DNA of 64,000 nucleotides, from assembly GCF_025144725.1 (NCBI RefSeq), contig NZ_JALXKS010000003.1, positions 1 through 64,000 on the forward strand, read 5' to 3'. The translations under genes and the position numbers were made by a program. The number at the start of each line of letters is the position of its first letter. Positions within the stretch are counted from its first letter, which is position 1. The notes beneath the pieces are model-generated. The model was not told the DNA's origin and ran no database searches. It was given only the letters and a program-made list of their open reading frames with translations. Below are positions 33,552 to 59,025 of the stretch, piece after piece. Source of the stretch: Brevibacterium sp. p3-SID960 (GTDB lineage: Bacteria; Actinomycetota; Actinomycetes; Actinomycetales; Brevibacteriaceae).

Positions 33552-33641
33552 CTTCCGCCTTTCTGGTCGGCAATCAATTATGCCGTGTTCTCACGCCCCC
33601 GTCACCACAGGCATGTCGGCGGCACAGAATTGAGGAGGAGT

Positions 33642-33731
33642 TCACCTGCCTGTTGCCGGCCATCCGCAGAAGTCAGCGAGCTTCCGGCCCGCCAGCACCG
33701 AGGCGACGGCAGGGCCGGCGCGCAGCGTCTT
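33642..33731 (-). pseudogene. Displaced 3' end of the spermidine-synthase-like gene
   Basis: On the minus strand this 29-codon open stretch (KTLRAGPAVASVLAGRK..., stop at 33642) has no start codon of its own. It reads like the C-terminal end of spermidine-synthase-like proteins, which normally continue from ...IALA into a short (R/K)xLRxG region. The gene body at 44074-44814 stops abnormally at the other end of the element. Joining them at the shared TTG gives an unbroken ...LAKTLRAG... frame. It is the remnant left on this side by integration. Confidence 0.8.
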
Positions 33732-33751
33732 GTCGACGTGTCGGGTTTGAC
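33710..33751 (+). other. attL, left junction of the integrated element
   Basis: The inferred core TTG is at 33730-33732. Left of it is the displaced target-gene tail; right of it is element DNA with GTTTGAC at 33745-33751. That heptamer is the mirror of GTCAAAC at the right junction, at almost the same distance from the core (12 versus 13 bases). The arms match at roughly 14 of 17 positions. The centre of the dyad falls between the two T bases, making TT the likely crossover dinucleotide. Confidence 0.72.
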
Positions 33752-33784
33752 CGGCGTACCTACCAGGCAACGAGGGAGGTCGTC

Positions 33785-35269
33785 ATGGACGGCACAGCAG
33801 CAAGCAGTGGCATGGAGCAGGTGGTGGTGTACCTGCGCATCTCCGAGGATCGTACCGGTGCGGAGGCCGGGGTCGAGCGGCAACGCCAGGACTGCCTGGA
33901 GCTGTGCGCGCGGCTCGGGATCAGCGACCCGGCGATCTTCATGGACAACGACATCTCGGCCTACTCGGGCAAGAAACGCCCCGGCTACCTCGACCTACTC
34001 GAACGCGTGAAGCTGGGGCCGTCGCGGATTGTGGCATGGCATGTGGACCGCCTCTACCGTCGCCCCCGCGAACTGGAAGACCTCATCGACCTCGTGGAGA
34101 CGCATCCGATCCGGATCGAGACGGTCAAGGGCGGCGCGTTCGACCTGAACACCCACGAAGGCAGGCTCATGGCCCGTCGGCTCGTCGCGATCGCCTCCTA
34201 CGAATCCGGCCACAAAGCCGACCGCATCCGCCGGGCGAACCAGCAGAAAGCCGAGCGCGGCGACTGGCACGGCGGGGCAAAGTACGGGTACGGCATCGGC
34301 GGCGTCCTCATCCCCGAAGTAGCCGCCGTCATCCGCGAGATGGCCGACCGGTTCCTCGCAGGGCAGTCGGTGCGGCAGATCACCAGGTGGCTCAACCGCG
34401 ACGACGGACCAACACCGCCGTCGAAAGGCAAGAGCCGGTTGAACGTGTGGCACGAGAGCACCGTCGGCTCGATCCTGTGCTCCGCGCGCATCTCGGGGCA
34501 GCGCGCCTACGAACCAGCATCCAAGACGACGGCGACGTGGGAACGGCGCGATCGGGCGATCCTGGGGCCGGGGAACTGGGAGGCGATCATCACCCCGGAA
34601 GAGACGATGCGTATCCGGGCGGTGTTCAACCATCCCGACCGGCGCGTGGGCCGCTCCTCCAAAAGCCTGCTCGCCGGGCTGATTTCCTGCGCGAAGTGCG
34701 GGAACACGCTCGTGTCGTCGGGGTTGCACCGAGGCGAGACGTCTATCGGGAAGCGCCGCTTCTACCGTTGCCTGCCCCTGCCCGGCAGGCCCGAGCGGGG
34801 CGGGCTCGTCGTGTCCGCGCACGGCATCGAAACCCTGGTAAGCGAAGCGATGATCGCGCGCCTAGCCGCGACCACGCTGCCGACCGCCGCGCCGGGCGAG
34901 GACGCCGGGATCACCGCGGCGATGGAGCAGATCACCGCCGCCCGTCAGCGGATGGAGGACATGGCCCGCGACTACGGAGCCGGGCTGCTCTCCCGCACCG
35001 AGCTCCACGCCGCGAAGACCGCCGCCACCGCGGCAATCAACAACGCAGAACTCGTCCTGGGACGTAACGCGAAGTCGTCCGCGTTGAAGGGTATCCCCAT
35101 CGGCGACGAGCAGGCACTACGAGAGGCGTGGGAAACCGAGTGGTCGATCCCGCAGAAACGAGCGATCATCGCCGCACTGATCGACACCCTCATCGTCAAA
35201 CCCGCACAGCCCGGCAAGACCGGGGCGAGGTTCCGACCCGAACGCGTCGAACTCACCTTCAAAGCCTGA
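33785..35269 (+). CDS. Large serine recombinase (integrase)
   Basis: A 494-residue site-specific recombinase. The resolvase domain carries the catalytic Ser20 in YLRISEDR and Arg residues in the DRLYRRPRELEDL region. A recombinase domain follows (about 170-270), then a zinc ribbon with CAKCGNTL near residue 303 and a C-terminal coiled coil with a predicted DNA-binding segment. It lies 53 bases inside attL, the usual place for such integrases. GGGAGG sits six bases before the ATG. No recombination directionality factor was recognised, though the small gene next door is a candidate. Confidence 0.94.
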   Translation: MDGTAASSGMEQVVVYLRISEDRTGAEAGVERQRQDCLELCARLGISDPAIFMDNDISAYSGKKRPGYLDLLERVKLGPSRIVAWHVDRLYRRPRELEDLIDLVETHPIRIETVKGGAFDLNTHEGRLMARRLVAIASYESGHKADRIRRANQQKAERGDWHGGAKYGYGIGGVLIPEVAAVIREMADRFLAGQSVRQITRWLNRDDGPTPPSKGKSRLNVWHESTVGSILCSARISGQRAYEPASKTTATWERRDRAILGPGNWEAIITPEETMRIRAVFNHPDRRVGRSSKSLLAGLISCAKCGNTLVSSGLHRGETSIGKRRFYRCLPLPGRPERGGLVVSAHGIETLVSEAMIARLAATTLPTAAPGEDAGITAAMEQITAARQRMEDMARDYGAGLLSRTELHAAKTAATAAINNAELVLGRNAKSSALKGIPIGDEQALREAWETEWSIPQKRAIIAALIDTLIVKPAQPGKTGARFRPERVELTFKA

Positions 35270-35290
35270 ACCAACACGGCACGCGCGAGG

Positions 35291-35500
35291 TCATCGCTTG
35301 GGGCGAGTGAGGACGCGGAGCTTCGCCAGGGCGACCGGATCGGTCACACCGACCGGCACCCCGGAACACTCGCACGCCTCGCGCGTCCACACCACCGGGT
35401 CAAACCCCGGCGGCAGACCGCTCGGAACCCGGCTCTGCCGCTCACGAGCCGAGGGTGCCGGGGAAGCCTTGGGGGTGCTGTGTGCTGCTGTGGTTGCCAT
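35291..35500 (-). CDS. Small unrecognised protein (69 aa)
   Basis: This short basic protein begins MATTAAHSTPKASPAPS and ends with a region containing CECSGVPVGVTDPVALAKLRVLTRPKR. It converges on the integrase gene with 21 bases between the stops, and its upstream side is AT-richer than most of the element. I do not recognise the family. A small protein beside a serine integrase can be an excisionase or regulator, but nothing in the sequence proves that. The start could also be further upstream in the same frame. Confidence 0.5.
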   Translation of the reverse strand: MATTAAHSTPKASPAPSARERQSRVPSGLPPGFDPVVWTREACECSGVPVGVTDPVALAKLRVLTRPKR

Positions 35501-35634
35501 GCCAGACAGGTACGCAGCATCAACCACAATATCTAGTGCGAATGAAGCGATGCAAACGCTATATGTAGATGTTGTCGCGAGTAGCGCCACCCGGTCGATG
35601 CCACCCGGAGGCCGGGCCGCACCACCGAGGAGGT

Positions 35635-36492
35635 TCACCGTTCAGGCGTCGGGTTGGGGTGGGCGGCGCGTATGGCGTCTGTCAGCGCGTTGTCGTCGCG
35701 GAGTGAGTCCGGCGGTTCACCGTTGAGCAGGCGCAGCAGTATGCCGTCGCCGGTCGGGGTGCCGGTGTGCTTCGCCGCGGGATGGCCCAGTACGATCCGC
35801 AGCAGCGCAGTCCAGGACCGTGGCGGCAGACCCAGCACGACCGGCACGGTGCGGTCGCGGCGCAGCACCTCCACCGCACGGGACCGCGAAGACAGGTCAG
35901 CCAGCCGATAGGCCACATGCTCCACGCAGTCGGCCACGAGCGCGGCATCCCAGCCCTCCAACACGAACAGTCCCACCACCTCCGACAGCACGGCAGCGAC
36001 CGGCCCGTCATCCTCACCGGACTCTGGATCATCATCGTCGGGAGCGACCGCGAACGCAGGATGGTAGTCGGCCAGGCCCTCTCGGTCCGCGAACCGCACG
36101 GCATCATGGAATCCGGCGATCCTGGGCGTGCGGCGGGCCTTGCTCGTCGCCACCAACAGCCCAGCAGCCCGAGCCTCGACGCCGCAGGTGATCTGCACGG
36201 CGCGGGTGACCACGGCCCACGGGTTCCCTGCGTTCCGCGTCGAGGGGGCGAGCATGACCTCGAACGCCGCCGACGCGATATGCCACGGGTCGAGGTTGTG
36301 TTTCCTGGCCAGCCGTCGATACCGCTCGGCGGTGTAGCGCATCAGATCCGCCGCCTCCCGATCACCCTGCCACGCCCCAGGCCCAGACTCGTGCAGGCGG
36401 AGGAGCAGGGCGCGTAGCCCTTCGGGCGTCTCGAATCCTCGGCTGCCCGGCTCCGCAGCGTCGTCGGCGGCGGGCGGGGTGTGTTCGGCCAC
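35635..36492 (-). CDS. Unrecognised element protein (285 aa), sigma-like N-terminal region
   Basis: I cannot name this protein. Residues about 45-110 contain ...YTAERYRRLARKHNLDPWHIASAAFEVM... and a WAVVTRAVQIT helix, loosely resembling region 2 of sigma-70-like proteins. An acidic linker (DDDDPESGEDDG) and an alpha-helical C-terminal half ending near GDGILLRLLNGEPPDSL follow. It starts at GTG with GGGAGG seven bases upstream; that site can pair in a 6-bp hairpin. It may be a regulator of element functions; a distant sigma-like or structural role is equally open. Confidence 0.6.
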   Translation of the reverse strand: MAEHTPPAADDAAEPGSRGFETPEGLRALLLRLHESGPGAWQGDREAADLMRYTAERYRRLARKHNLDPWHIASAAFEVMLAPSTRNAGNPWAVVTRAVQITCGVEARAAGLLVATSKARRTPRIAGFHDAVRFADREGLADYHPAFAVAPDDDDPESGEDDGPVAAVLSEVVGLFVLEGWDAALVADCVEHVAYRLADLSSRSRAVEVLRRDRTVPVVLGLPPRSWTALLRIVLGHPAAKHTGTPTGDGILLRLLNGEPPDSLRDDNALTDAIRAAHPNPTPER

Positions 36493-36757
36493 GGTGGTAC
36501 CTCCCGTGAAGGAGGTGGCCCACCAGGAGCCAGACCAGGACGCTCACCAACGCGCCCCTATGCCCGCCGCTCGTCAGCATTACTGTTCGACTTATCCCAG
36601 TGCCATTTCGAAACTCTCGGCTGACCGTTGAGATGGCGACGGAGGAATTACCTGGGGTGGATACCTTGTGCTCCGGGGGCGCAGCCGTGGCTCAGTTCGC
36701 GGCGCTCGGGCGTTGTTCTGTTCATGCCGTTCGTGTGCCTTCTGGTGAGGGAAGTTG
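36493..36757. other. Intergenic region inside the element
   Basis: No gene is supported in these 265 bases between the 285-residue protein and the DUF1772 gene. The left end contains the ACCTCC (36499-36504) / GGAGGT (36511-36516) hairpin that covers the ribosome site of the minus-strand gene. The rest shows no obvious promoter pair or repeat. Confidence 0.5.
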
Positions 36758-37195
36758 CTAGACGGCGGCGAGTCCGATGGTGACGAGGATGAACCCGAGG
36801 AGCTGAAGCGATCCTCGGGTGATCTGGAAGACATCCCAACGGCGGCGCATTGCGATGAAGCCTTCGGGTGCGGTGTCCTGTTTGATGCGTCCGGTGCGGA
36901 AGTTGATGGGCACGTTGCCGAAGATGGTGACGATGAGCGCGATCCCGAGGGCGACGGCGGCGGAGATCAGCCAGGCCGAGGGCGTCGGGATTGCGACGGT
37001 GATCGCGAGGACGGTGGCGGCGGTCATGCCGATGGGCATGATGCGTCCGTAGGTCTTGAGCAGCCCTTTCTCGAAGGTGAGCTGGTCGTCGGGAGCGAGT
37101 TTTCGGATCACGGGGTGCACGAGTGCGACAGAGGCGAACTCGGCTGACCCGACGAATCCGGTGACGAGGATGGTGGCAGTCTCCAGCCAGTTCAT
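36758..37195 (-). CDS. DUF1772 (anthrone oxygenase-like) membrane protein
   Basis: This 145-residue protein has four hydrophobic segments and the DUF1772 pattern: an early FVGSAEFASVALVHPVIRKL helix, a FGNVPINFRTGRI loop and a final membrane helix. Some members act as anthrone oxygenases; most are uncharacterised. It starts at ATG after GAAAGG and overlaps the upstream NmrA-like gene by 4 bases. The pair faces a divergent MerR gene, so it is likely an inducible detoxification or redox operon. Confidence 0.82.
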   Translation of the reverse strand: MNWLETATILVTGFVGSAEFASVALVHPVIRKLAPDDQLTFEKGLLKTYGRIMPIGMTAATVLAITVAIPTPSAWLISAAVALGIALIVTIFGNVPINFRTGRIKQDTAPEGFIAMRRRWDVFQITRGSLQLLGFILVTIGLAAV

Positions 37196-38082
37196 GATGT
37201 TGACCTTTCGGCGGCGTTGTCGCGCTGTAGCGCGATCCACCTGGCGAACGGGGTGGGAGGGGTGCCGAAGTCCTGGAACCACGCGGTGGTGTCGGTCACG
37301 TCGCCGTGGCGGTCAATGCTGTCGAGGATGCCCAGGGGTCTGGTCATCTCGCCCTTCAGGAATAGGCGATTGATGGCGCGCATGAATCCGAGCGGCATGA
37401 CCCGCACCGCGTTCGATGCAACGGGCTTGCCGGATATTGCGCCCGCGTATGCGGCGGTCGCCTCCCGCAATGTCATCGTCTGCTCCCCGGCCACGTCGTA
37501 GACCTTGTTCGCGGTTTCGGGCATCTCGAACGCGCGGGAGGCAGCCGCCATGATGTCGTCAGCGGTGACGGGGTGGATCGGGTGCGGTTGGTTGCCGATG
37601 AGTACCGGGCGGCCGCCTCGGATGAACTTCGCGAGCGTTTCATTGATGAACCCGACACGGAACACGGTGGATGCCACCGGGCTGGCCATCAAGAGTTGCT
37701 CGCCACGGGCCTTGGAGTGTTCCCAGGGATAGTCGGCATAGGCGGGCTGTGCGAACATGCCGGAGATCAGCACCACGCGCCGCACCCCAGCCGCTTCAGC
37801 GGCGGCGGCAACGTTCGCAACGCCGTCTTCCTCGATGTGTCGCGCCCGCTCAGGGTCGCTCCCACCGTTGAGGGTCAGCAGCACGCCATCAACGTCGGTG
37901 AACGCGGCCACCAACGTGTCGGGGGCCGTGACGTCACCCCGCACGGTCTCGACACCCTTTGGTAGCGATGCCTTCTCTGGCGACCGCACGATCGCGCGCA
38001 CTGTGTGGCCGTCTGCCAGCAGGCGGGTAAGGGCGTACCCACCGAGGTACCCGGTTGCTCCTATGACAGCGATGCGTGCCAT
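37192..38082 (-). CDS. NmrA-like NAD(P)-binding oxidoreductase
   Basis: A 296-residue short-chain-dehydrogenase-like protein of the atypical NmrA/NAD(P)H-binding type. The N-terminal Rossmann motif is IGATGYLGG, followed by GDVTAP and a substrate-binding C-terminal part. There is no classical Tyr-x-x-x-Lys visible in the expected place, so it may be a sensor or a quinone-type reductase rather than a true dehydrogenase. It forms an operon with the DUF1772 gene. Confidence 0.82.
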   Translation of the reverse strand: MARIAVIGATGYLGGYALTRLLADGHTVRAIVRSPEKASLPKGVETVRGDVTAPDTLVAAFTDVDGVLLTLNGGSDPERARHIEEDGVANVAAAAEAAGVRRVVLISGMFAQPAYADYPWEHSKARGEQLLMASPVASTVFRVGFINETLAKFIRGGRPVLIGNQPHPIHPVTADDIMAAASRAFEMPETANKVYDVAGEQTMTLREATAAYAGAISGKPVASNAVRVMPLGFMRAINRLFLKGEMTRPLGILDSIDRHGDVTDTTAWFQDFGTPPTPFARWIALQRDNAAERSTS

Positions 38083-38094
38083 CCCCGCCTCCTC

Positions 38095-38138
38095 ATGGAT
38101 AGTGCGATTATCTATTTATGGATACTAGTATTATCCAT
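38095..38138. promoter_or_regulatory. Two 21-bp MerR-type operators
   Basis: Two dyads share the same architecture of ATGGATA, seven bases, then TATC(C/T)AT. The first spans 38095-38115 (right arm TATCTAT, one mismatch). The second spans 38118-38138 and is perfect. Their centres are 23 bp apart. They lie between the NmrA-like gene start (38082) and the MerR start, covering the region where both promoters should be. The match to the MerR gene next door is inferred. Confidence 0.75.
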
Positions 38139-38185
38139 CTGAAAGCGCCAGCGCGATGGGAACGAGGTGCAACGTGGAGATGCGG

Positions 38186-38842
38186 ATGGCGGAGCTGTCA
38201 CGGCGGTCAGGGCTCAGCGTGCCCACGATCAAGTACTACTTGCGCGAAGGGCTGTTGCAGCCGGGGCGACGGACGAGCGTGAATCAGGCCAGATACGACG
38301 ATGCCCATCTCGAACGCCTCCGACTGATCCGCGCGCTCGTGAAGGTTGCCGGGCTTCCGCTCGACAAGGTTCGGGAGGTCGTGCAGGCGGTCAGCATTGA
38401 GCCTTCCGTCCTCGATGCGATGGGCGTCACCCAAGACGCACTCGTTGGCGACGTTGGAGCCGTCCCAGGCGAGGAGGCTGCGTTACAGCTACTCTCGGAG
38501 CTCGTCACCGCGCGCGGTTGGCGATGCCAGGAGGGGTCGCCCGCGCACGCCGCAGCGGTTCAGGCGATAGCTGAGCTGCAGGCCGAAGACCTCACCCTTC
38601 TTCTGGATCGTCTCGATGAGTACGCCGACGCCGCGGACGCGGTTGGACGCATCGACGTCCGGGCCGTCGCTGAGGCCGAGAACCTCGAAACGATGATCCG
38701 CGGTGTCGTCCTGGGCAGCGTGCTTCGCCGCCCACTCCTGGACTCCCTCGTGCTCCTTGCCCAACAGCACTACGCCAACCAGCTCAACCAGAAGATCGAA
38801 ACCACCAGGCACGACACTCCCACACGTCAAGCTCGCGCATAG
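38186..38842 (+). CDS. MerR-family transcriptional regulator
   Basis: This protein (218 residues from the chosen start) has an N-terminal winged helix beginning MAELSRRSGLSVPTIKYYLREGLL and a dimerisation helix. The C-terminal region (about 70-210) is helical, without the cysteines expected of metal sensors, so the effector is unlikely to be a metal thiolate. The chosen ATG has GGAG six bases upstream; ATG 38156 and 38180 are alternatives. It probably controls itself and the NmrA-like/DUF1772 operon through the twin operators. Confidence 0.85.
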   Translation: MAELSRRSGLSVPTIKYYLREGLLQPGRRTSVNQARYDDAHLERLRLIRALVKVAGLPLDKVREVVQAVSIEPSVLDAMGVTQDALVGDVGAVPGEEAALQLLSELVTARGWRCQEGSPAHAAAVQAIAELQAEDLTLLLDRLDEYADAADAVGRIDVRAVAEAENLETMIRGVVLGSVLRRPLLDSLVLLAQQHYANQLNQKIETTRHDTPTRQARA

Positions 38843-38886
38843 CGCTCATCGCTCGACACGGATCACCTGCCCTGCCATCGCTAGAG

Positions 38887-38994
38887 CCAGACCCCCTACT
38901 TCTCTGGATCCAGCCCCGCTACTTCTCTGGATGCACGCATTTTACGGCGGGGCCGTGGTGCACACCTCCCTCATGAGACCACTCATGAGGGAGG
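38887..38994. promoter_or_regulatory. Candidate oriT and relaxase translation-control hairpin
   Basis: Two adjacent 23-bp repeats, 21 of 23 identical (38887-38909 and 38910-38932, shared core CTACTTCTCTGGAT), are followed by a perfect 13-bp stem (38965-38977 with 38982-38994) and loop ACCA. The 3' arm holds the GGGAGG ribosome site of the relaxase, five bases before its ATG. Iterons plus a hairpin next to a MobF relaxase is the pattern of an origin of transfer; the nick site cannot be placed by eye. Confidence 0.6.
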
Positions 38995-39000
38995 GCCAAG

Positions 39001-42000
39001 ATGAAGGGCGGCGTGATCCTGTTCCGCGGCAGCGGTGCTGCCGCCCGCCGCTATGTCGAGGCCGACCGGTCCCGCGCCGACGAGTACTACCTCGGCGCAG
39101 AAGACGCCGTAGCGGAGTACGCCGTGATCGACTCCACCGGCGAGCTCACCTTTGCCCGGTCGCTGTCGGCGGACGAGTACGAGGGGTGGGTGGACTGGAT
39201 CAACCCGGACACCGGGGAGTCGATGGGCACGCCGCGGAAGCCCGGCGACGTGCGGAAGGGGTCGCCGTTGTTCGCGGAGATGACGATCAATGCCCCCAAG
39301 TCCCTGTCGGTCGCCGCCGCCCTCCACCCGGCGGTATCGGAGGCGTTGGATATGGCGCAGCGTGACGCGGCGACAGAGATTCAACGGTTCCTTGGCCAGC
39401 ACTCGGTCACCCTGGCGGGGCCGCGCGGCGCGCAGGAAGTCCTCCCGGTCGAGCACATGCAGACCGTCGCGATCACGCACAAGACCTCGCGGGCGGGTGA
39501 TCCGCACCGGCATATCCACTTCCAGATCGGCACCCGGGTGTGGGCGGCCGGGAAGTGGCGGGCACTGACCACCGCGGCCCTGTTCAAGCAGCAAGGAGCG
39601 ATCCGCGCCCTCGGCACCGCGGTCATCGCCGCGCACCCCGAACTCGCGCAGACGCTCGCGGAGCACGGTCTGACCCTCGACCCGGTATCCGGTGAGGTGA
39701 CCGAGCTGGAACCGTTCAACGCGGTCATGTCGAAGCGGTCGGCGCAGATCAGACGCAACCTGGACCGCATGGTCGCCGAGTGGCAGGCGGAGCATCCCGG
39801 CGAGACTCCTGGCCCGGCACTCACAGCACGGTTGCAGGATGCCGCGTGGGCATATCAGCGTCCCGGTAAGAGGCCTGCCGACCTCAAAGATGAGCAGTGG
39901 TGGGTGAACGAACTCACCGAGGCCGGATACGACCCGGCCCGCTTGCATCGGCGGGAGACGCCCGCGCCGGTATCGCTGGATGACCTGTCGGTGCAGGAGG
40001 TCGCCAGTCGCGCGCTGGACCGGAGCGCCGCAGGAGCGTCAACGTGGACGCGGCACACCGTGGCCGAGCACGTCACGAGGGTCATCACCGAGGCGGGCGC
40101 GCGGGCGACGCCCGCTGAGTTGCGGGAGTTCATCGGTCTGGCGACCGGGCTTGCTGTCTCGGATTGCTTCTCTGTTCTGCCGCCGGGCGCACTCACGCCG
40201 GAGCATGTCGCGCATCTGACCAGCCTCAGCGTCGTCGCCGCCGAGACCGCGCTACGCGACCAGATCACCACCGCTGTGCCGGATCGGGAGCCGGAACACC
40301 CGGACGTGACCCGCGTGGCGCACGCCACCGGACTCGATGCCGGACAGACCGTTGCGGCAGCGGCGGTGGCTTCTACCGATCCGCTGGTGATCGTGGAGGG
40401 TGCGGCGGGCAGCGGGAAGACGACCATGCTGCGCACCGCGATCACCGTCGCCGCCGGACACGGCAGGGCGTCGCGGGTGGTTGCACCGACGTTGCGGGCG
40501 GCGCAGGTCGCGCACGACGAACTCGGCGTACCCGCGACATCGATTGCGGCGCTGGTGCACGCGCACGGGTGGCGGTGGAACCGTGACGGCGTGTGGACAC
40601 GCCTGAACCCCGGCGACACCGATCCCGCAACCGGCGGCACCTATACCGGGCCACCCGAAGACGCGCGACTGGATCGCGGCACACGGGTGATTGTGGACGA
40701 GGCCGGGATGCTCGACCAAGACACTGCCCACGCCCTCCTCACCATCACCCAAGAAGAAGGCGCCACCGTCGCGCTCATCGGTGACCGCGCCCAGCTCCCC
40801 GCGGTCGGCCGGGGCGGTGTGCTCGACATGGCCGAACAGATCAGGGGCCGCACCTACGACATGACCGAACTCCATCGGTTCACCGACCCCGACTACGCGG
40901 CCCTCACCCTCGCCATGCGCGACCGGGAGAACCCCGGTGACGTGTTCGACCGACTCGCCACCCTGGGCCTCGTCATCCTGCACGCCGTCGAGGACGCGGC
41001 CCGCGAGCATATCACCGCCCACGCCCGTGACGGGGAGGCAATCACCGTCGCCACCAACGAAGAAGCCGCTGCGGTGAACGAGCGCATCCGCGCCGGGAGG
41101 GTCGAGCGTGGCGAGGTAGACGACACCACGACGGCGACCGGCAGCGACGGCTTGAGCATCGGTGCCGGTGACCTCATCCAGACCCGCCGCAACGACAGCA
41201 CCCTGGGTGTGGCGAACCGGCAACAGTGGATCGTGCAGCACGTCACCGACGAGGGCACGGTGTATGCCTACGAGGTCGGCAGCGACCGCAAGCACCTGCG
41301 CACCGTCGCGCTTCCACCCGAGTACGTGGCCGAGCACGCGCACCTGTCCTACGCCGCGACCGCGTACGGCGTCCAAGGCGCAACCGTTGACGGCTCCCAC
41401 ACGCTGCTCAGTAACGCGACGAGCGCGGCGGGCGTGTACGTCGGCATGACCCGAGGCCGCGACACCAACCGGCTCCACATCGTCGCCGAGAACATGGACG
41501 ACGCCAAGATTCGGTTCATTGAGGCGATGGAACGCGACCGGGCAGACCGGGGCCTCGACCACGCCACAACCCAAGCCGTCGAAGCAGTGCGCGGTCTCGT
41601 CAGTGACGGCCCGGCCAAGCTTGTCACCGCTGAACTCGTCCGCCTTGACCAGGAAGCCGAGCGCGCCCGGAGACAGGCGGAGCGGTGGGAGCAGATCGCC
41701 GCACGCCTCGACGCCCAACGCACCGCTCATCGAGCGGGGGACGATAAGAGCACTGCCGTGCTCCGCAAGGCCGAAGACGAGGCCGCACGAGTGCGCGCCG
41801 AGGTCGCTGGACCGCTCACCGCTCAAGCCGCACACGACGGTGCGACCTATCTCAGTGCTGTCGAGGGTGAAGACACCGCACGCGCCCGACTCGCCACCGT
41901 GGGCAGGTTTGGCCGACGCAAAGCCCGCGCCGAGCACCGCACCGCAACCGAACACACTCAGACGTTGCGCGGACAGGTCACCACCGAATGGGGCACCACG

Positions 42001-42456
42001 CCGAGCGGCTCTGACCGTCTCCCGGAATGGGCAGCCCGAGTCGCCGCTAAGCGCGCCGAGACCGATCCGCGCGTGACCGACGCCGCCCAAACCCTCGAGG
42101 CCGCCACCGCCGACCGGAAAGCGACACTCGGGCGGCACGAGCAGGAGCGGCTGGCGTTGCTGGTCAGCGAGTACGGGGCGGAGCGAGCACGTCGTGACCA
42201 TCTCGGCATGCGGATAGCGACCCCCCACCGCGACGCCCGCGACGCCCGAGCGCGAGCCGCCACGACCCGTGCTGAAGCCGACGAACTGCGCGGTCTCCCC
42301 ATCACCGACGCCGCCCGACGCATCGAAGCCAAGCGTGCCGATCAGGAGCACGCTCGACAACGAGCAGCGGAACGGGCGCGGCAGGTCCATGACCCGTTTG
42401 CGCTTGATCCTTACCGCCACGACCCCCGTCGCGAGGGGCCGGCACGCGGGCTGTAG
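39001..42456 (+). CDS. MobF-family conjugative relaxase-helicase (TrwC/TraA-like)
   Basis: An 1151-residue relaxase-helicase. The N-terminal relaxase shows candidate catalytic tyrosines at 18 and 29-30 and the metal-binding HUH motif HRHIHFQI near residue 170. A RecD-like helicase follows with Walker A GSGKTT (Lys473), Walker B VIVDEAG near 565 and a C-terminal UvrD-like motif (HLSYAATAYGVQGATVDGSH). The last 250 residues form a charged coiled coil. It would nick oriT and unwind DNA for transfer. Its ribosome site is inside a strong hairpin. Confidence 0.92.
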   Translation: MKGGVILFRGSGAAARRYVEADRSRADEYYLGAEDAVAEYAVIDSTGELTFARSLSADEYEGWVDWINPDTGESMGTPRKPGDVRKGSPLFAEMTINAPKSLSVAAALHPAVSEALDMAQRDAATEIQRFLGQHSVTLAGPRGAQEVLPVEHMQTVAITHKTSRAGDPHRHIHFQIGTRVWAAGKWRALTTAALFKQQGAIRALGTAVIAAHPELAQTLAEHGLTLDPVSGEVTELEPFNAVMSKRSAQIRRNLDRMVAEWQAEHPGETPGPALTARLQDAAWAYQRPGKRPADLKDEQWWVNELTEAGYDPARLHRRETPAPVSLDDLSVQEVASRALDRSAAGASTWTRHTVAEHVTRVITEAGARATPAELREFIGLATGLAVSDCFSVLPPGALTPEHVAHLTSLSVVAAETALRDQITTAVPDREPEHPDVTRVAHATGLDAGQTVAAAAVASTDPLVIVEGAAGSGKTTMLRTAITVAAGHGRASRVVAPTLRAAQVAHDELGVPATSIAALVHAHGWRWNRDGVWTRLNPGDTDPATGGTYTGPPEDARLDRGTRVIVDEAGMLDQDTAHALLTITQEEGATVALIGDRAQLPAVGRGGVLDMAEQIRGRTYDMTELHRFTDPDYAALTLAMRDRENPGDVFDRLATLGLVILHAVEDAAREHITAHARDGEAITVATNEEAAAVNERIRAGRVERGEVDDTTTATGSDGLSIGAGDLIQTRRNDSTLGVANRQQWIVQHVTDEGTVYAYEVGSDRKHLRTVALPPEYVAEHAHLSYAATAYGVQGATVDGSHTLLSNATSAAGVYVGMTRGRDTNRLHIVAENMDDAKIRFIEAMERDRADRGLDHATTQAVEAVRGLVSDGPAKLVTAELVRLDQEAERARRQAERWEQIAARLDAQRTAHRAGDDKSTAVLRKAEDEAARVRAEVAGPLTAQAAHDGATYLSAVEGEDTARARLATVGRFGRRKARAEHRTATEHTQTLRGQVTTEWGTTPSGSDRLPEWAARVAAKRAETDPRVTDAAQTLEAATADRKATLGRHEQERLALLVSEYGAERARRDHLGMRIATPHRDARDARARAATTRAEADELRGLPITDAARRIEAKRADQEHARQRAAERARQVHDPFALDPYRHDPRREGPARGL

Positions 42457-42471
42457 CCGTGTTCGTGCACC

Positions 42472-42477
42472 TATCCT
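42472..42477 (+). promoter_or_regulatory. Candidate -10 element of the RCC1 gene
   Basis: TATCCT lies 6 bases before the GTG start at 42484, and no Shine-Dalgarno is visible in between, which suggests leaderless expression. The hexamer sits 15 bases after the relaxase stop. Confidence 0.35.
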
Positions 42478-42483
42478 GATTAT

Positions 42484-43356
42484 GTGGAGACAGCAGTGCG
42501 GGGATGCGGACCGGTACTGGCGGCAGGCCGACGGCACTCAGTTGCGCTGCGACAGGATGGCACCGTGGTCGCCGTTGGTGATGGCAGAGCTGGTGAATGC
42601 GATGTCGACCGCTGGGAAGACGTGATCGCGGTAGCAGCGGGCAACGTCCATACCGCCACGAACACGGGCAAATCGCACACCATCGGTCTTCGCTCAGACG
42701 GCACAGTGCTGGCGACTGGATGGAACGACGACCAGCAGTGCGAAGTCGGAGGATGGCGAGACATCGCAGCGGTAGCGGCGGGTTGGCGACGCACCCTCGG
42801 TGTCGCCTCGGATGGCACGGTGCTGGCTACCGGACGCATCAGCGAGGGCGCGTGCGATGTGCGATCCTGGCGAGACATCGTGGCAGTCTCGTGCGGCGAC
42901 TGGCATTCGGTCGGCCTATGTGAGGACGGTTCAGCCGTAGCGGTCGGTAACAACCGACGAGGGCAATGCGCTGTTGGGCACTGGCGGAACCTCACGGCGA
43001 TTGCGGCAGGTTACCTCCACACGGTCGGGTTGAGACACGACGGGCGAGTACTCACTACTGCGGCACCGGCCACAGGAGCGGGCAACGTCAGCCGGTGGGA
43101 GGAGGTCGTCGCGGTGGCCGCCGGGAGTCGCCACACAGTGGGCGTGACCGCTTCCGGCCGGGTTCTGGCCGTTGGGGATAACAGCCACGGGCAGTGCGAT
43201 GTCGAGGGCTGGGACAACATCATCGCAGTCGCAGCAGGCTCCGCCCATACCCTCGGCCTGTGCGCTGATGGTGCCCTCGTCAGCGCAGGAAACAGCGCCG
43301 ACGGCAGGCGAGACGTCACGTCGTGGATAGGCCTGCACTGCCCTGAAAGAGACTAG
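42484..43356 (+). CDS. RCC1-repeat beta-propeller protein
   Basis: A 290-residue protein made almost entirely of about seven repeats of roughly 36-45 residues. Each carries the (V/I)AAG..H(T/S)VGL..DG.VLA(V/T)G signature typical of RCC1-type blades. The repeats suggest one complete propeller. No signal peptide, membrane span or extra domain is seen. It lies 27 bases after the relaxase gene in the same orientation. RCC1 proteins in bacterial mobile elements have no settled function; a protein-binding scaffold is the simplest guess. Confidence 0.8.
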   Translation: METAVRGCGPVLAAGRRHSVALRQDGTVVAVGDGRAGECDVDRWEDVIAVAAGNVHTATNTGKSHTIGLRSDGTVLATGWNDDQQCEVGGWRDIAAVAAGWRRTLGVASDGTVLATGRISEGACDVRSWRDIVAVSCGDWHSVGLCEDGSAVAVGNNRRGQCAVGHWRNLTAIAAGYLHTVGLRHDGRVLTTAAPATGAGNVSRWEEVVAVAAGSRHTVGVTASGRVLAVGDNSHGQCDVEGWDNIIAVAAGSAHTLGLCADGALVSAGNSADGRRDVTSWIGLHCPERD

Positions 43357-43450
43357 AAACCACAGGAACACGACGACCAAGACCGGACCCCTGCGCCTAT
43401 GCCGCTACACTGGTGGTGGGACAATAGTGTGCACGAGCGGGAGGAATGTC

Positions 43451-44068
43451 ATGGCAGCTTCCATCGATCTGGAATACCCGTTCACTGGCCGCTGGATCGT
43501 CCAGAACAGCCCCGCCAACCGAGTACCCAGCCATGGCACGGCGCTGCTGGCCACGTCCTACGCCATCGACTTCGTTCCCGCCGATGGCGCCGGGCGCTCC
43601 GCACCCATCACGTTCAGTTCGTTCATACGACCCGAACCGGCAGAGAAGTTCTCGGGCTTTGGCCGCATGCTCCTGACGCCTGTCGAAGGGATCGTCGTCT
43701 CCGCGCACGACACCGAACCCGACCACCCTGCATATCGCGGACTACCGTCTATCGGCTATGCCCTCACCCAGCAACGCCGAGCCCGAGCAGGGTGGATCGC
43801 ACTTGCCGGTAACCACGTACTCATCGAGTCCGATGGTGTCGTGGTCGCCCTCTGCCATCTCCAGCAAGGCAGCCTGAAAGTCCGGACGGGACAGCGCGTG
43901 CAGATAGGCACCGGGCTCGCGCGCTGCGGGAACTCCGGCAACAGCACCGAGCCGCACGTCCACATCCAAGCGATCACCACCCCCGATATCGAGCGCGCCG
44001 CAGCCGTGCCCCTCACGTTCAGGGGCACCCTCCCGCGCAACGGAGCGGTCATCGACATCAGCGATTAG
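43451..44068 (+). CDS. M23-like (LytM) metallopeptidase-fold protein
   Basis: This 205-residue protein shows an early His followed by YAIDFVP (about residues 28-42) and then GNHVLIES, HLQQGS, G.....GNSGNSTEPHVHIQ near the end. Those are the zinc ligands and catalytic His pattern of M23 endopeptidases. There is no signal peptide or membrane segment, which is unusual for a wall enzyme. GGGAGGA lies six bases before the ATG; TACACT at 43405 is a possible -10. It may process a peptide or be an inactive lectin-like fold. Confidence 0.78.
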   Translation: MAASIDLEYPFTGRWIVQNSPANRVPSHGTALLATSYAIDFVPADGAGRSAPITFSSFIRPEPAEKFSGFGRMLLTPVEGIVVSAHDTEPDHPAYRGLPSIGYALTQQRRARAGWIALAGNHVLIESDGVVVALCHLQQGSLKVRTGQRVQIGTGLARCGNSGNSTEPHVHIQAITTPDIERAAAVPLTFRGTLPRNGAVIDISD

Positions 44069-44072
44069 TGGT

Positions 44073-44120
44073 GTCAAACACAACATGTGGTATTGGCCAG
44101 TGCGATGTCGTCGATGTCCG
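44073..44120 (+). other. attR, right junction of the integrated element
   Basis: The inferred core TTG is at 44093-44095. Element DNA to its left contains GTCAAAC at 44073-44079, the mirror of GTTTGAC at attL. To the right is target-gene DNA. The element end supplies the new stop codon (44074-44076, minus) and the last few altered codons of the truncated gene. Confidence 0.72.
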
Positions 44121-44814
44121 TTCCCGAGGCGAGGGCGATGAGATTGCCGAATCGCCGGCCGCGCAGCTGGCTGGGATCGGCGATGAGCACGATGTGCGCA
44201 AAGTGCTGCCGCATCCGTGTCAGCTCTTCGCGAGCGCTGGCGTGCGGGGGACGGTCGGCGATGTTGGCGAGGTAGATGCCCTGGGGTCGAAGCGTGCGCG
44301 CGGCGTGGGAGAAGAACGTGTCGTCGGCAAGCTGGCCCGGCGTCTCATCGGCGCTGAAGGCGTCACGGACGACGAGGCTGAGGGCGTCGTCGCAAAACGT
44401 GGCGATCTCGACCGCACCGTCGCCTGCGCGCAGCTTGAGCGCAGGGGAGCGGGGCAGGTCGAACCACTCGCGGACGTATTCGAGGAGCTTCTGGTCGATG
44501 TCGATGGCGGTCTGCCGGGACCCGGGCCGGGTCGCGTCGATGTAGCGGGCCAGCGAGCAGCCGGCCGCCCCGATGTGCCCAGCACGCAGGGTCTGACCTG
44601 TGTCGAAGAGCGCGTCGATCGTGCGGGCCATCCAGTCGAGGTACTCGAAGTCCAGGCGGGTCGGGTCGCTGAGCGTGATGCACGAGCTCGGCACGCCGTT
44701 GACGTAGAGGACCCACGAATCGGGTTCGGCTGGCACCGGTTCGATGCGTGCGGTGCCGGTGGAGATGGCGTACTCGCGCTGCTGTGCCTCGTCCTTGGCC
44801 CGTCTGCGTCCCAT
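44074..44814 (-). CDS. Spermidine-synthase-like protein, C-terminus replaced by the element
   Basis: This 246-residue product has the polyamine-synthase-like Rossmann fold with a glycine-rich loop near GHIGAAGCSLARYI (residue about 85), then DIDQKLLEYVREWF and a GDGAVEI segment. Its last residues (...DIDDIALANTTCCV) end in element sequence; relatives continue for about 30 more residues, and those are found at 33642-33731. It is probably still folded, since the lost part is a terminal extension. The true substrate of such actinobacterial proteins is uncertain. Confidence 0.85.
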   Translation of the reverse strand: MGRRRAKDEAQQREYAISTGTARIEPVPAEPDSWVLYVNGVPSSCITLSDPTRLDFEYLDWMARTIDALFDTGQTLRAGHIGAAGCSLARYIDATRPGSRQTAIDIDQKLLEYVREWFDLPRSPALKLRAGDGAVEIATFCDDALSLVVRDAFSADETPGQLADDTFFSHAARTLRPQGIYLANIADRPPHASAREELTRMRQHFAHIVLIADPSQLRGRRFGNLIALASGTDIDDIALANTTCCV

Positions 44815-54586: not shown

Positions 54587-55624
54587 ATGGATCTTCTGCC
54601 GACAATCTGGTTCATTCTCATCGCCGTCCTCTGGCTCGGCTACCTGTTCCTCGAAGGATTCGACCTCGGCGTCGGGATGCTGCTCAAGGGCTTCTCCCGC
54701 GACGAGAAGGAGCGCCGCGTGCTGCTCAACACCATCGGCCCCGTCTGGGACGGCAACGAGGTGTGGCTGCTCACCGCTGGCGGTGCGACCTTCGCAGCCT
54801 TCCCGATGTGGTACGCCTCGCTGTTCTCAGCGCTGTACCTGCCGCTGACGCTCGCGCTGCTCGCACTCATTCTGCGCGCTGTCGCCATCGAGTACCGCGG
54901 CAAGGTCCACACAGAGGCCTGGCGCAACGGCTGGACCTGGTGCCTGGCCGGCGGCTCCGCCCTCGCAGCGTTCTGCGTCGGTGCGATGCTGGCGCTGACC
55001 ACCACCGGTCTGCCGCTCAACGAGAACGGTGACAACATCGGCGGTGCCTTCGCCTGGGTCAACATCTACGCCATCATCGGCGGACTCGGCGTCGTCGGGT
55101 TCTGCCTGCTGCACGGCCTGCTGTTCATCTCACTCAAGACCGATGGCGAGGTCCGGTTCCGGGCCCGCGCGCTGGCCGCCAAGCTGGCGCCGGTGTTCCT
55201 GCTGCCGCTCGTCGCCTGGGTCGTCATCGTCCAGTTCATGCACGGCGGACTCATCGGCTGGGGACTCATCGTCGTCGCCGCAGTGCTCGCCGCGGTGATG
55301 TGGCTGCAGATCCGCAAAGACGCTGAGAAGTCGGCGTTCTTCGCCCAGGCATTGTTCCTCGCCGTCGGCGTGACGGCGGTGTTCCAGGCCATCTACCCGA
55401 AGGTGCTGCCCTCGACGGTCGACGACGCATTCTCGCTGACGGTCTCGAACGCCTCGTCCTCGGGATACACACTCACGGTCATGCTCATCGTCGCCATCGT
55501 CTTCGTGCCGATCGTGCTGGTCTACCAGATCTGGAGCTACTCGGTCTTCGCCACGCGCCTCAAGACCGAGCACATCCCGCCAGCCCACCAGGTGCCGGTC
55601 GCAATCCGCAGCCACCATCAGTGA
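54587..55624 (+). CDS. cydB: Cytochrome bd quinol oxidase subunit II
   Basis: A 345-residue membrane protein with about eight spans. The FLEGFDLGVGML motif near residue 22 and the GNEVWLLTAGGATFAAFP segment near 53 are typical of CydB. It starts 9 bases after cydA and its end overlaps the cydDC start (GTGA). It supports the bd oxidase complex and the quinol channel. Confidence 0.95.
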   Translation: MDLLPTIWFILIAVLWLGYLFLEGFDLGVGMLLKGFSRDEKERRVLLNTIGPVWDGNEVWLLTAGGATFAAFPMWYASLFSALYLPLTLALLALILRAVAIEYRGKVHTEAWRNGWTWCLAGGSALAAFCVGAMLALTTTGLPLNENGDNIGGAFAWVNIYAIIGGLGVVGFCLLHGLLFISLKTDGEVRFRARALAAKLAPVFLLPLVAWVVIVQFMHGGLIGWGLIVVAAVLAAVMWLQIRKDAEKSAFFAQALFLAVGVTAVFQAIYPKVLPSTVDDAFSLTVSNASSSGYTLTVMLIVAIVFVPIVLVYQIWSYSVFATRLKTEHIPPAHQVPVAIRSHHQ

Positions 55625-58600
55625 GCCGGACACAGCACCGATCGCCTGTCGCCATAGCGCATGCCGCCCCACAGGGCCGGCGGGAGCTATGGCTGCTCGG
55701 CCTCATCGCCGCAGCCCAGGCCCTCGGCCTCATCCTCGTCGCTGACGGCATCGCCCGGGGCATCGTCGCAGCGATGGAGGGCCGGGCGATCACCACGGCT
55801 GCCGCGCTCGGCATCACCGGCGCCCTCATCCGCGGTCTGACAACCTGGGCGTCGAAGACAGCCGGGGCGCGTGCCGCCGTGGGATTCAAGACGACGCTGC
55901 GCTCCCGCCTCGTCGACCGCAGCCTTGCCGGCTCAGGTCGCGACCTGCCGGCCTCAGACGGGGCGCTCGCGCTCACCGCAACCCGCACCCTCGACGATCT
56001 CGATGACTACTTCACCGGGGTACTGCCCGCGCTGCTGGCCAGTGCGCTCATCCCCGGCCTCATCATCGCCCGGGTCCTCTTCACCGACTGGGTCAGCTCG
56101 CTGATCCTCATCCTGACCCTGCCGCTCGTGCCGATGTTCATGATCCTCATCGGCCGCTACACCGAGAACCGCGTCGCCGACGCCACGCGCGCGCTCGACC
56201 AGCTCTCGACCAACATCGTCGAACTCGCCCGCGGCCTGCCCGTCCTCGTCGGCCTCGGCCGAGTCGCCGCGCAGACCGCCGCACTGCGGCGCATGAGCAC
56301 CAGCTATCGCACCACCACCATGCAGACCCTGCGCGTGGCCTTCATCAGCGCTCTGGCATTGGAGCTCATCGCCACCATCTCAGTCGCGGTCGTAGCAGTC
56401 TTCATCGGCGTGCGGCTCGTCTACGGTCACATGGGCCTGGAGGCGGGGCTCTTCGCCCTCATCCTCGCCCCGGAGTGCTTCCTGCCGCTGCGCCGCCTGG
56501 GGGCGGCATTCCACTCAACTGAGAACGGCGTCGCCGCCTACGACCGTGTCTCGGCCATGACCGAGCACCCTGCCGCCGAGCGCCTCGGACTCACACCGGC
56601 ATCTGACAGCCCGGAGACGGGCCCGGCCGGCACCCCGATCACCTTCACCGAGCTCAGCGTCTCCTACGCCTCCCGCCAGCAGCCAGCACTGCCGCCGCTG
56701 ACCGCCGAGGTGCCGGGCACCGGCCTCACCGCGGTCACCGGCACCTCCGGATCGGGGAAGAGCACGCTGCTCGGCGTGCTCGCAGGTTTGGTCCGCAGCA
56801 CCGAGACAGGGGAATGCCGCATCACCGGCAGTCTCAGCGGCGTCCCCGCCCGCGTCGCCTATGCCGGGCAGGGCCCGCGGATGTTCGCACCGACGGTCAT
56901 CGAAGAGCTCTCGCTGTACGCCGGCCGTGGGCTCACTGCCGAGGAGACCATCGAGATCTCCGCCGCTGCAGCTCTCGACGTCGACCCTGAGATGCCATGC
57001 GCCGCGCTGAGCCCGGGGGAGCAGCGCCGGCTGGCCATCGCCCGTGTGTGCGCCCAGCGCGACGCCGAGCTCATCCTCGTCGACGAACCGACCGCCCACC
57101 TCGACGCTGGTGCCGCAGCCGCAGTGCGGCAGACCCTGCACCGGCTCGCGCGCACCCGCCCGGTCATCGCCGCGACCCACGACGAGACCCTCGTCTCCGA
57201 AGCCGACACACACATCCGTCTGACATCCGCCGCGCGACCGGCGGTCACCGATCGGTCCGTCCCCGCTGCATCCGCAGCCGACGCGACGTCAGGCTATCGA
57301 GAATCCCCGCCTGGGAACCGGGACACAGCTGCCTTCGATGAGCAGACGGCTGTGCCGGCCGCGCCGACGGGCACGCTGCTGCGCCGGCTGGCAACGGCAG
57401 TCGACATGCGCTCGGCGAAGTTCTGGCTGGCCGTCTTCTACGGCGTCGCCGCCGTCGCCGCCGGTGCTGCGCTCACCGGTGTCTCCGCCTGGCTCATCGT
57501 CCGCGCGTCTGCCCAGCCGCCGATCATGTACCTGCTCGTCGCGATCGTCGGCGTGCGCTTCTTCGGACTGTCACGTGCGGTGTTCACCTACCTGCAGCGA
57601 CTGGCTCTGCACGACGCGGTGCTGCGTGCCCTCATCGACCTGCGGGAGCGGATGTGGATCGGCTTCGCCCGCACCGGCACCGCCAACCGCACCCTGCTGC
57701 GCGGCGACATCGCACTCACGCGCTTCATCGCCGATGTCGACGACATCCGCGACATCGCTCCCCGTGTCGTGCTGCCCCCAGTCGTCGCCCTCGGCGTGAC
57801 GATCGCCGCAGTGGGCACGCTGGCCGTCATCGCCTGGGAGGCCGCACTCATCATGCTCGTCGGCGGTCTGCTGTGCCTGGGTGCCGCACCGTGGGTGACG
57901 GTGCGGGCAGACCGCGCGGCCAGCAGTGCAGCGCTGACGGTTCGGCAGCAGGCACTCGGAGTGCTCGCGCGTCTGCTCTATGCCCGGGAGGATCTTATCG
58001 CCGCAGGTCGCACCGCACCGGCCGCGGCACAGTTCACACGCGCCGACGCCTCGGCAGGGGCCTACGAATCAGCAGCGATCCGCGCCACCGGTGTCGGAGA
58101 GGGCATCATCACCGCTGTGGGTGTGCTCACCGGCATCATCATGATCCCGGTGCTCGCCGGCCAGGTTACAGCCGGTGAGCTCAGCGGCGAACTGCTCGCC
58201 GTCGCCGTGCTGCTGCCGCTGGCGCTCATCGACGCCTTTGCCGACTCGCTGTCCGCTGTCCAGCAGTGGCCGGGACTGGCACGGACCCTCGCCCGCGTCG
58301 ACGATCTCGACCCGGCAGACAACGCAGGCGCCCTTGCCACCGGGGTGAGCCCTGAACGGATCACCGAGCTGACGCTGTCCGACATCTCGGCGCGCTGGCC
58401 GGGTACCCGGACCGACGTCTTCACCGGCCTCAGCGCAGTGCTGCCCCGCGGTGGGGTGGCTGCTGTCACCGGTCCGTCAGGTTCGGGCAAGACGACGCTT
58501 GTGAGCGTGCTGCTGCGCTTCCTCGACCCGCGCACCGGCCGCTACCAGCTCAACGACACCGACGCACTGACCTGTCTGCCGATGGACCTGGCCGGGCGGA

Positions 58601-59025
58601 TCGCGTGGTGCCCGCAGGAAGCGCACGTCTTCGACTCGACGCTGCGGGCGAATCTGCTCATCGCCCGTCCGCGCGAGGACAGACCCAGCGACGCAGAGCT
58701 GCAGTCTGCGCTCGAACGCGTCGGACTCGGTGCTCTTGCCGCCGACATCGGGCTCGACGAGCGGATCGGTGCCGGCGGCGGGCATCTGTCGGGTGGCCAG
58801 CGGCAGCGCCTGGCCGTTGCGCGCACCCTGCTGGCCGACGCCGAGGTGGTGGTCCTCGACGAGCCGACGGCTCACCTCGATGAGGAGATGGCAGCCGCGC
58901 TTATGGCCGACTTGCGCAGGGGACTGAATGAGGAACTCGTCATCCTCGTCACTCACGATCCGACCCTCATTGCCGACTCCGACATCCCCGTCCAGCTGAC
59001 GGGCCGAATCCCGGCGCATCTGTGA
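55621..59025 (+). CDS. cydDC: Fused CydDC heterodimeric ABC exporter
   Basis: This 1134-residue protein combines both CydD and CydC in one chain. The first half has a membrane domain and an ATPase with GTSGSGKSTLL near residue 377 and signature LSPGEQRRLAIARV. The second half repeats it with GPSGSGKTTLV near 955 and LSGGQRQRLAVARTLL. CydDC exports thiols or acts on heme and is needed to assemble bd oxidase. The start is GTG overlapping cydB. Fusion of the two subunits is known in actinobacteria. Confidence 0.93.
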   Translation: MSRTQHRSPVAIAHAAPQGRRELWLLGLIAAAQALGLILVADGIARGIVAAMEGRAITTAAALGITGALIRGLTTWASKTAGARAAVGFKTTLRSRLVDRSLAGSGRDLPASDGALALTATRTLDDLDDYFTGVLPALLASALIPGLIIARVLFTDWVSSLILILTLPLVPMFMILIGRYTENRVADATRALDQLSTNIVELARGLPVLVGLGRVAAQTAALRRMSTSYRTTTMQTLRVAFISALALELIATISVAVVAVFIGVRLVYGHMGLEAGLFALILAPECFLPLRRLGAAFHSTENGVAAYDRVSAMTEHPAAERLGLTPASDSPETGPAGTPITFTELSVSYASRQQPALPPLTAEVPGTGLTAVTGTSGSGKSTLLGVLAGLVRSTETGECRITGSLSGVPARVAYAGQGPRMFAPTVIEELSLYAGRGLTAEETIEISAAAALDVDPEMPCAALSPGEQRRLAIARVCAQRDAELILVDEPTAHLDAGAAAAVRQTLHRLARTRPVIAATHDETLVSEADTHIRLTSAARPAVTDRSVPAASAADATSGYRESPPGNRDTAAFDEQTAVPAAPTGTLLRRLATAVDMRSAKFWLAVFYGVAAVAAGAALTGVSAWLIVRASAQPPIMYLLVAIVGVRFFGLSRAVFTYLQRLALHDAVLRALIDLRERMWIGFARTGTANRTLLRGDIALTRFIADVDDIRDIAPRVVLPPVVALGVTIAAVGTLAVIAWEAALIMLVGGLLCLGAAPWVTVRADRAASSAALTVRQQALGVLARLLYAREDLIAAGRTAPAAAQFTRADASAGAYESAAIRATGVGEGIITAVGVLTGIIMIPVLAGQVTAGELSGELLAVAVLLPLALIDAFADSLSAVQQWPGLARTLARVDDLDPADNAGALATGVSPERITELTLSDISARWPGTRTDVFTGLSAVLPRGGVAAVTGPSGSGKTTLVSVLLRFLDPRTGRYQLNDTDALTCLPMDLAGRIAWCPQEAHVFDSTLRANLLIARPREDRPSDAELQSALERVGLGALAADIGLDERIGAGGGHLSGGQRQRLAVARTLLADAEVVVLDEPTAHLDEEMAAALMADLRRGLNEELVILVTHDPTLIADSDIPVQLTGRIPAHL

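Follow-up and report, generated by a model that had tools for sequence, protein, structure and literature searches.

The region analysed here is a stretch of 64,000 nucleotides from Brevibacterium sp. p3-SID960 (contig NZ_JALXKS010000003.1, positions 1 to 64,000), referred to in the following as the window. It contains a spermidine-synthase-like gene which is interrupted after codon 240 of 269 by an element of 10,363 bp (Table 1). A first-pass annotation, made from the sequence alone, had described a 10.36 kb mobile element that splits this gene, and both the element and the position of the two gene halves were confirmed. The annotation had also proposed that fusing the halves restores the reading frame; joining 33601-33732 to 44096-44814 resulted in a single open frame of 269 codons, which matches the alleles of genomes free of the element.

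The interrupted gene and the attachment sites

The element-free site was identified in two sister genomes (L001 and L002, presumably of the genus Brevibacterium), in both of which the gene is whole. Such genomes had been named in the annotation as the check on the fused junction, and the intact gene agrees with it: the fused flanks of the window are identical to L002 at 187/187 bases and to L001 at 181/187, without gaps, and the lost tail of 29 residues (KTLRAG...TGR) is identical in L002. An intact homologue ending at position 44074, which had been named as contrary to an insertion, was not found among 30 aligned homologues; these are 250-269 residues long compared to the 240 retained codons, and none stops at the break. 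The annotated insertion is supported by these sequence comparisons.

The nearest solved relative of the split gene is 3gjy, named 'Spermidine synthase' (E 1.7e-48, aligned over query residues 28-234). The gene reached 44.0 bits against the NCBIfam model 'fused MFS/spermidine synthase' (cut-off 40), stayed far below the cut-offs of the polyamine aminopropyltransferase models (73.8 of 304 and 20.3 of 260 bits), and gave no match in a Pfam search. 'Spermidine-synthase-like' is a fair label for such a methyltransferase-like protein, with a putative substrate assignment. The truncated product may keep some function, since conservation is lower in the lost tail than in the core (mean match 0.32 vs 0.59 in the 30 homologues) and the tail lies beyond the stretch aligned to 3gjy.

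The serine integrase was found next to attL, adjoining the startless tail as the annotation had stated. The annotation had further proposed a shared TTG core, of which the TT part was borne out, while the third base is a chance match in the window; only TT is common to the relatives across the join and is therefore the minimal core. The arms that it had read as mirror images are present as described, and their symmetry taken alone is modest evidence, with 14/25 positions matching; pairs of 25-base stretches drawn at random from the element do so in 0.36% of cases. The symmetry becomes convincing because the left arm and core are kept across the close relatives of the integrase (the close clade, defined below) and the right arm is present in 9/12 genomes searched. 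Core and left arm together, 23 bases, are identical in 17/17 close-clade rows, which had been found by the same 23-base pattern with up to four mismatches allowed. As for the three genomes without the right arm, that of L004 also lacks a close integrase; the right arm was found separately in L034, L038 and L055, and a less similar version in G064. The element arm next to the integrase is constant among relatives, and the opposite side varies. Read in the frame of the lysine codon introduced below, the attR arm encodes NTTC followed by a stop after at most two further residues in 16/16 ends.

On this basis, the serine integrase would have joined a circular attP, with TT at the centre of its dyad arms, to a TT site of the chromosome within the split gene, from which the insertion severs the last 29 codons. 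Placement by homologous recombination, transposition or an assembly error could be suspected from the position in the window, which departs from the motif described below. It is highly improbable given the exact dinucleotide join, the conserved attP arms on both sides, the integrase beside attL as in the relatives, and the existence of an element-free allele of identical sequence.

Insertion sites of related integrases

Relatives of the integrase were identified at 30 loci in a genome scan, 11 of them with integrases 93-96% identical to that of the window, from seven named genera and one unclassified Actinomycetaceae. Within the genus, 3/57 genomes carry a relative at 94-96% identity. In genome samples searched at E 1e-100, relatives were found in 4/396 genomes of the order and in 4/398 of one family; the class sample gave 0/394 and had no positive control, so that it is not evidence of absence. 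Neither an integrase relative nor a copy of the attL arm was identified in viral contigs, and the 45 plasmid records matched by the integrase were all under 60% identity. The loci fall into a close clade, with integrases 78-96% identical where seen, and a sister clade at 65-73%.

For the site counts, rows with the same flank were merged, some of which come from different genomes (L044 and L063 with L034, L061 with L053, L093 with L042, L094 with L045, L107 and L118 with L040). L041 was omitted, as its attL is missing and its attR was read in L055, and so were seven scanned loci without an arm (L054, L056, L058, L059, L060, L095 and L096) and the unscanned L091. Of the 16 distinct close-clade sites, two were read from attR alone and the other 14 from attL.

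At 13 of these 16 sites the element sits on the Walker A lysine codon (GxxGxG-K-[ST]-T), namely in 11 MobF genes, one hrpB gene and one ABC gene. In the sister clade, all 12 readable sites lie at K[ST]T, in ten TadA/VirB11-type (T2SSE) genes, one MobF gene (L055) and the target of L046. Among 31 attL rows scanned, L051 was without the pattern; the chromosomal side of attL, read in the frame set by the core AA, begins with K[ST]T in 28/30 rows, duplicates included, the exceptions being the window (KTLRAG) and L032. On the attR side, the first halves of the targets end in GPAGAG, GPAGTG, GPAGSG, APPGTG or GPNGAG directly before the lysine, save in the window, L102 and L101.

The domain boundaries agree with this position. 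In the MobF targets, TrwC is present in 6/6 scanned first halves, AAA_30 starts at 31 in 3/3 scanned second halves, and it ends at 30 in 5/6 scanned first halves, the latter matches being weak (14-18 bits, under the cut-off). T2SSE starts at 155 in 9/9 TadA/VirB11-type targets and ends at 154 in L051 (9709), in which the element is inverted relative to its target at the same lysine and the core reads AA where others read TT. ABC_tran starts at 24 in the single ABC target, whose integrase is 94% identical to that of the window. The Frigoribacterium target, with an integrase 78% identical, was assigned as the HrpB helicase by HrpB_C; here the lysine was placed by the sequence itself, APPGTG-KTT, because the DEAD match starts at residue 7, short of the break. 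The MobF identity of the targets was obtained by Pfam in 7/11 cases (L031, L034, L035, L036, L038, L040 and L053), by weak tblastn matches for L033 and L037, by a TrwC match beside the break in the genome of L092, and by sequence likeness alone for the Gordonia pair L041/L055. The commonest close-clade target is a MobF of a different subfamily from the MobF of the element itself.

As a background, 48 Walker A motifs in long frames were counted against 27,481 AA/TT sites in the window and L031-L060, a fraction of 0.0017 that is rough and partly drawn from the insertion loci themselves. With this value, 13/16 has a probability of about 8e-34 if the sites are independent, and of about 1e-7 when MobF, HrpB and ABC are each counted once against three misses. 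A close-clade integrase specific for MobF, with the remaining insertions as scattered accidents lacking any P-loop preference, would account for the 11/16 MobF sites and for the three sites without a P-loop. It is an unlikely explanation, since at two of the five non-MobF sites (HrpB and the ABC ATPase) the break again falls on the lysine codon (P about 3e-5) and the sister clade cuts T2SSE ATPases at this codon in 10/12 loci.

The comparison of relatives points to a preference of this actinobacterial integrase family for Walker A coding DNA as attB. In the proposed mechanism, the crossover AA (TT on the opposite strand) would be the first two bases of the lysine codon in GxxGxG-K-[ST]-T, with the close clade mostly targeting a MobF gene and the sister clade preferring genes of TadA/VirB11-type ATPases. 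Integrases 93-96% identical to that of the window occupy three kinds of gene (MobF, ABC and the window gene) and one intergenic site.

The off-motif site of the window

The insertion in the window is best read as a true but off-motif one at a probable secondary site, because no P-loop is present there and the attB motif is not fitted. Apart from AAGAC at the core, the site shares little with the motif. The family thus appears mostly to prefer Walker A codons of P-loop nucleoside triphosphatases (NTPases), with the window site as an exception, a preference that was invisible to the first-pass annotation.

For scoring, an attB matrix was built from nine MobF sites. Of the 2,643 AA sites in the window, those at 58489 and 40417 score highest, and both are Walker A lysines. 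The median Walker A motif (48, all loci) lies within the top 1% of 27,414 AA sites; leaving out the ten motifs in the elements' own MobF proteins moves the median to about the top 2%, in a set that still includes clearly false motifs. The ABC site outscores all background sites of the window, and for HrpB seven background sites score above or equal.

Two observations were made on these best-scoring positions. Position 40417 is the Walker A lysine codon of the element's own MobF, which is thereby a strong attB match for its own integrase. Position 58489, the best match in the window, is unoccupied and lies in a long open frame (55327-59022), of ABC type as judged by eye, with two P-loop motifs.

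Several points weigh against a Walker A preference as the general rule. The window site itself scores -30, a value that about 70% of the background AA sites reach. L032/L102 lies outside any P-loop, between genes read by eye as serS and a diacylglycerol kinase (L032 scores -27), and L101 lies downstream of a gene judged by eye to encode a NUDIX hydrolase, 37 bases after its stop; for L101, attR alone was seen, the single side that can be read ranks in the top 4% by the matrix, and the integrase is known from a 56-residue fragment, 75% identical. The breadth of close-clade targets is represented by one ABC and one HrpB site, with MobF dominating. Most sister-clade sites were read from a single side, and no more than 18 residues of the L046 target are readable. 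The surviving insertions may also be biased towards dispensable genes. Regarding the spread of the elements, in 3/10 genomes the contig with the break has a TraG-type gene at a distance of up to 40 kb, and a conjugative carrier is likely in these three; two of the ten genomes examined gave no TraG match at all, so that most of the carriers are at best putatively conjugative.

The window site might instead be the native, specific attB of this integrase lineage. This reading is favoured by the clean insertion and by six integrase residues that were not seen in the ten close relatives compared. In the tree, from which the L057 row was disregarded as it was read out of frame, the integrase of the window is not separated from its relatives that insert into P-loops. 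No second insertion in the split gene was seen, the matches listed, from 57/59 genomes, containing no internal stop, and among the 29 homologues printed in the protein alignment only four (L001-L004) retain the Ala-Lys of the site. A native site is an unlikely explanation. The best explanation as a whole is an integrative and mobilizable element (IME) whose integrase prefers Walker A codons and which has used a secondary site in the window, to which we give a probability of roughly 0.85. With the empty site in hand, an off-motif landing in an ordinary chromosomal gene has been demonstrated for such an element.

Content of the element, spread and related systems

Table 1. Features of the element and of the gene that it interrupts (window positions; aa, amino acids)
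Feature	Coordinates	Strand	Remarks
Displaced 3' part of split gene	33642..33731	-	29 codons, without start
TT core of attL	33730..33731
Element-side attL arm	33732..33767		GTCGACGTGTCGGGTTTGACC..., kept in relatives
Large serine integrase, 494 aa	33785..35269	+	Resolvase 84.8 and Recombinase 47.5 bits, both over cut-off
Small protein, 69 aa	35291..35500	-	kept beside integrase
Protein, 285 aa	35635..36492	-
Anthrone-oxygenase-family small protein	36758..37282	-	cargo; true start perhaps further in
NmrA-like NAD(P)-binding protein	37192..38082	-	cargo; domain scan
MerR-family regulator	38156..38842	+	cargo; domain scan
MobF relaxase-helicase, 1151 aa	39001..42456	+	MobF 123.8 bits (cut-off 100); TrwC 132.6 (cut-off 25)
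RCC1-repeat protein	42484..43356	+	domain scan
M23 peptidase	43427..44068	+	relatives in L031, L035, L038
Element-side attR arm	44073..44092		GTCAAACACAACATGTGGTA; in the lysine frame, the complement reads NTTCxV followed by a TGA stop
5' part of split gene	44074..44814	-	codons 1-240, six element-coded residues (NTTCCV) and stop
TT core of attR	44093..44094

By its content the element is classed as an IME: its genes include a MobF relaxase and a large serine integrase, and a Pfam scan of its eight larger proteins gave no match to a secretion or coupling domain. The att ends are precise, and the integrase has the domain order of large serine integrases, with the catalytic Resolvase domain ahead of Recombinase and a zinc ribbon, the last reaching 22.4 bits, just under the cut-off of 25.3. 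The element's kind of MobF is present in 12/13 close-clade loci and in 14/30 of all loci; the 13 loci used for these content counts (L031-L041, L044 and L053) have integrases at least 78% identical over most of their length, and some are truncated at contig ends.

Spread would probably involve excision, a nick made by the MobF of the element itself and passage through the conjugation pore of another element. By landing in a relaxase gene, the IME would gain a mobile carrier and disable the helicase half of the target relaxase, so that the MobF target would be left with its relaxase domain and without the helicase. We consider it somewhat more probable than its opposite that this integrase group has adopted the coding DNA of the Walker A P-loop, which is among the most widespread of protein motifs, as a landing site across genomes and rival elements; the NTTC..stop cap would leave a clean truncated N-terminal protein, and a competitor's MobF would be reduced to a bare relaxase, with the IME bringing its own. 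If this is true, crossing over at the lysine codon would give a single enzyme access to sites in many genomes, those of rival mobile elements included. This suggests how an integrase could be both sequence-specific and broad, by recognizing DNA that the needs of protein function keep constant across many gene families. It also predicts where such elements are located, accounts for elements that break relaxases, including each other's, and provides GC-rich serine integrases whose natural sites form a definable set.

In Gordonia otitidis, the MobF of a first element (L041) is split at the Walker A lysine by a sister-clade element (L055) on the same contig; the element family can therefore prey on itself. 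Microbacterium esteraromaticum G1151 (the genome of L036; L112-L119) has 12 TrwC matches, eight of them 46-75% identical to the MobF of the window, and several elements of this kind therefore share one cell.

Parts of this behaviour are known from other systems. IMEs nested in genes of integrative and conjugative elements (ICEs), and secondary IME att sites used when the preferred site is absent, are described in a review (PMC5704250). The Firmicutes IMEs presented there, inserted in the ICE genes traG, Maff2 and SNF2, are similar in their serine integrase, the borrowed pore and the disruption of genes conserved in conjugative elements. They differ in using specific internal sites of single ICE genes, whereas here the target of related integrases would be the Walker A codon of several NTPase families, in Actinobacteria, and the relaxase of the element is a MobF. 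For multi-targeting large serine recombinases, Durrant 2022 (PMC10083194) likewise reports close relatives that hit different targets around a TT core. That clade mostly contains DUF4368, and the example given has an AT-rich motif, in contrast to the GC-rich P-loop coding DNA of the window integrase. A Pfam scan gave no DUF4368 match in the latter; since the domain is carried by 63% of the clade (PMC10083194), it marks the clade without defining it. In the same source, the gene for a Mg-chelatase/ATP-dependent protease is the target of 12.4% of predicted site-specific integrases, and the text contains none of the terms 'P-loop', 'ATP-binding' or 'ABC transporter', in a search that did not include 'Walker'. 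The PhiBT1 integrase at pseudo-attB sites in Nocardia (PMC5937489) is comparable as an actinomycete serine integrase acting on secondary sites when the standard site is missing; it is a phage integrase with another target, and its abstract draws no link to P-loops. The literature matches listed, a range that left most subscription papers and all preprints outside, included no paper in which integrases use DNA coding for Walker A as attB. Nested IMEs, multi-targeting serine integrases and the use of pseudo-attB sites are thus known, and within this range the use of Walker A codons as attB is apparently new.

Among the remaining genes, a relative of the 69-aa protein was identified in 27/30 loci of both clades, on the strand opposite to the integrase. 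Its C-terminal half is conserved (FD..WTR.AC..SGV...V.DP..L..LR.L), the structural model is confident solely as two helices, and the protein is a candidate recombination directionality factor. Relatives of the 285-aa protein are present in 10/13 close-clade loci, and also number ten when all 30 loci are counted. No domain was found in the window copy by Pfam, NCBIfam or PHROGs, its predicted structure has a mean pLDDT (predicted local distance difference test) of 69, and the PDB gave no match at E under 0.001. Among the candidates scored, 1,011 database relatives of the family were counted, and for several of these the source gives the name 'exopolyphosphatase'. PADLOC returned one match in the element, of the MerR protein to mad1 (E 3e-11).

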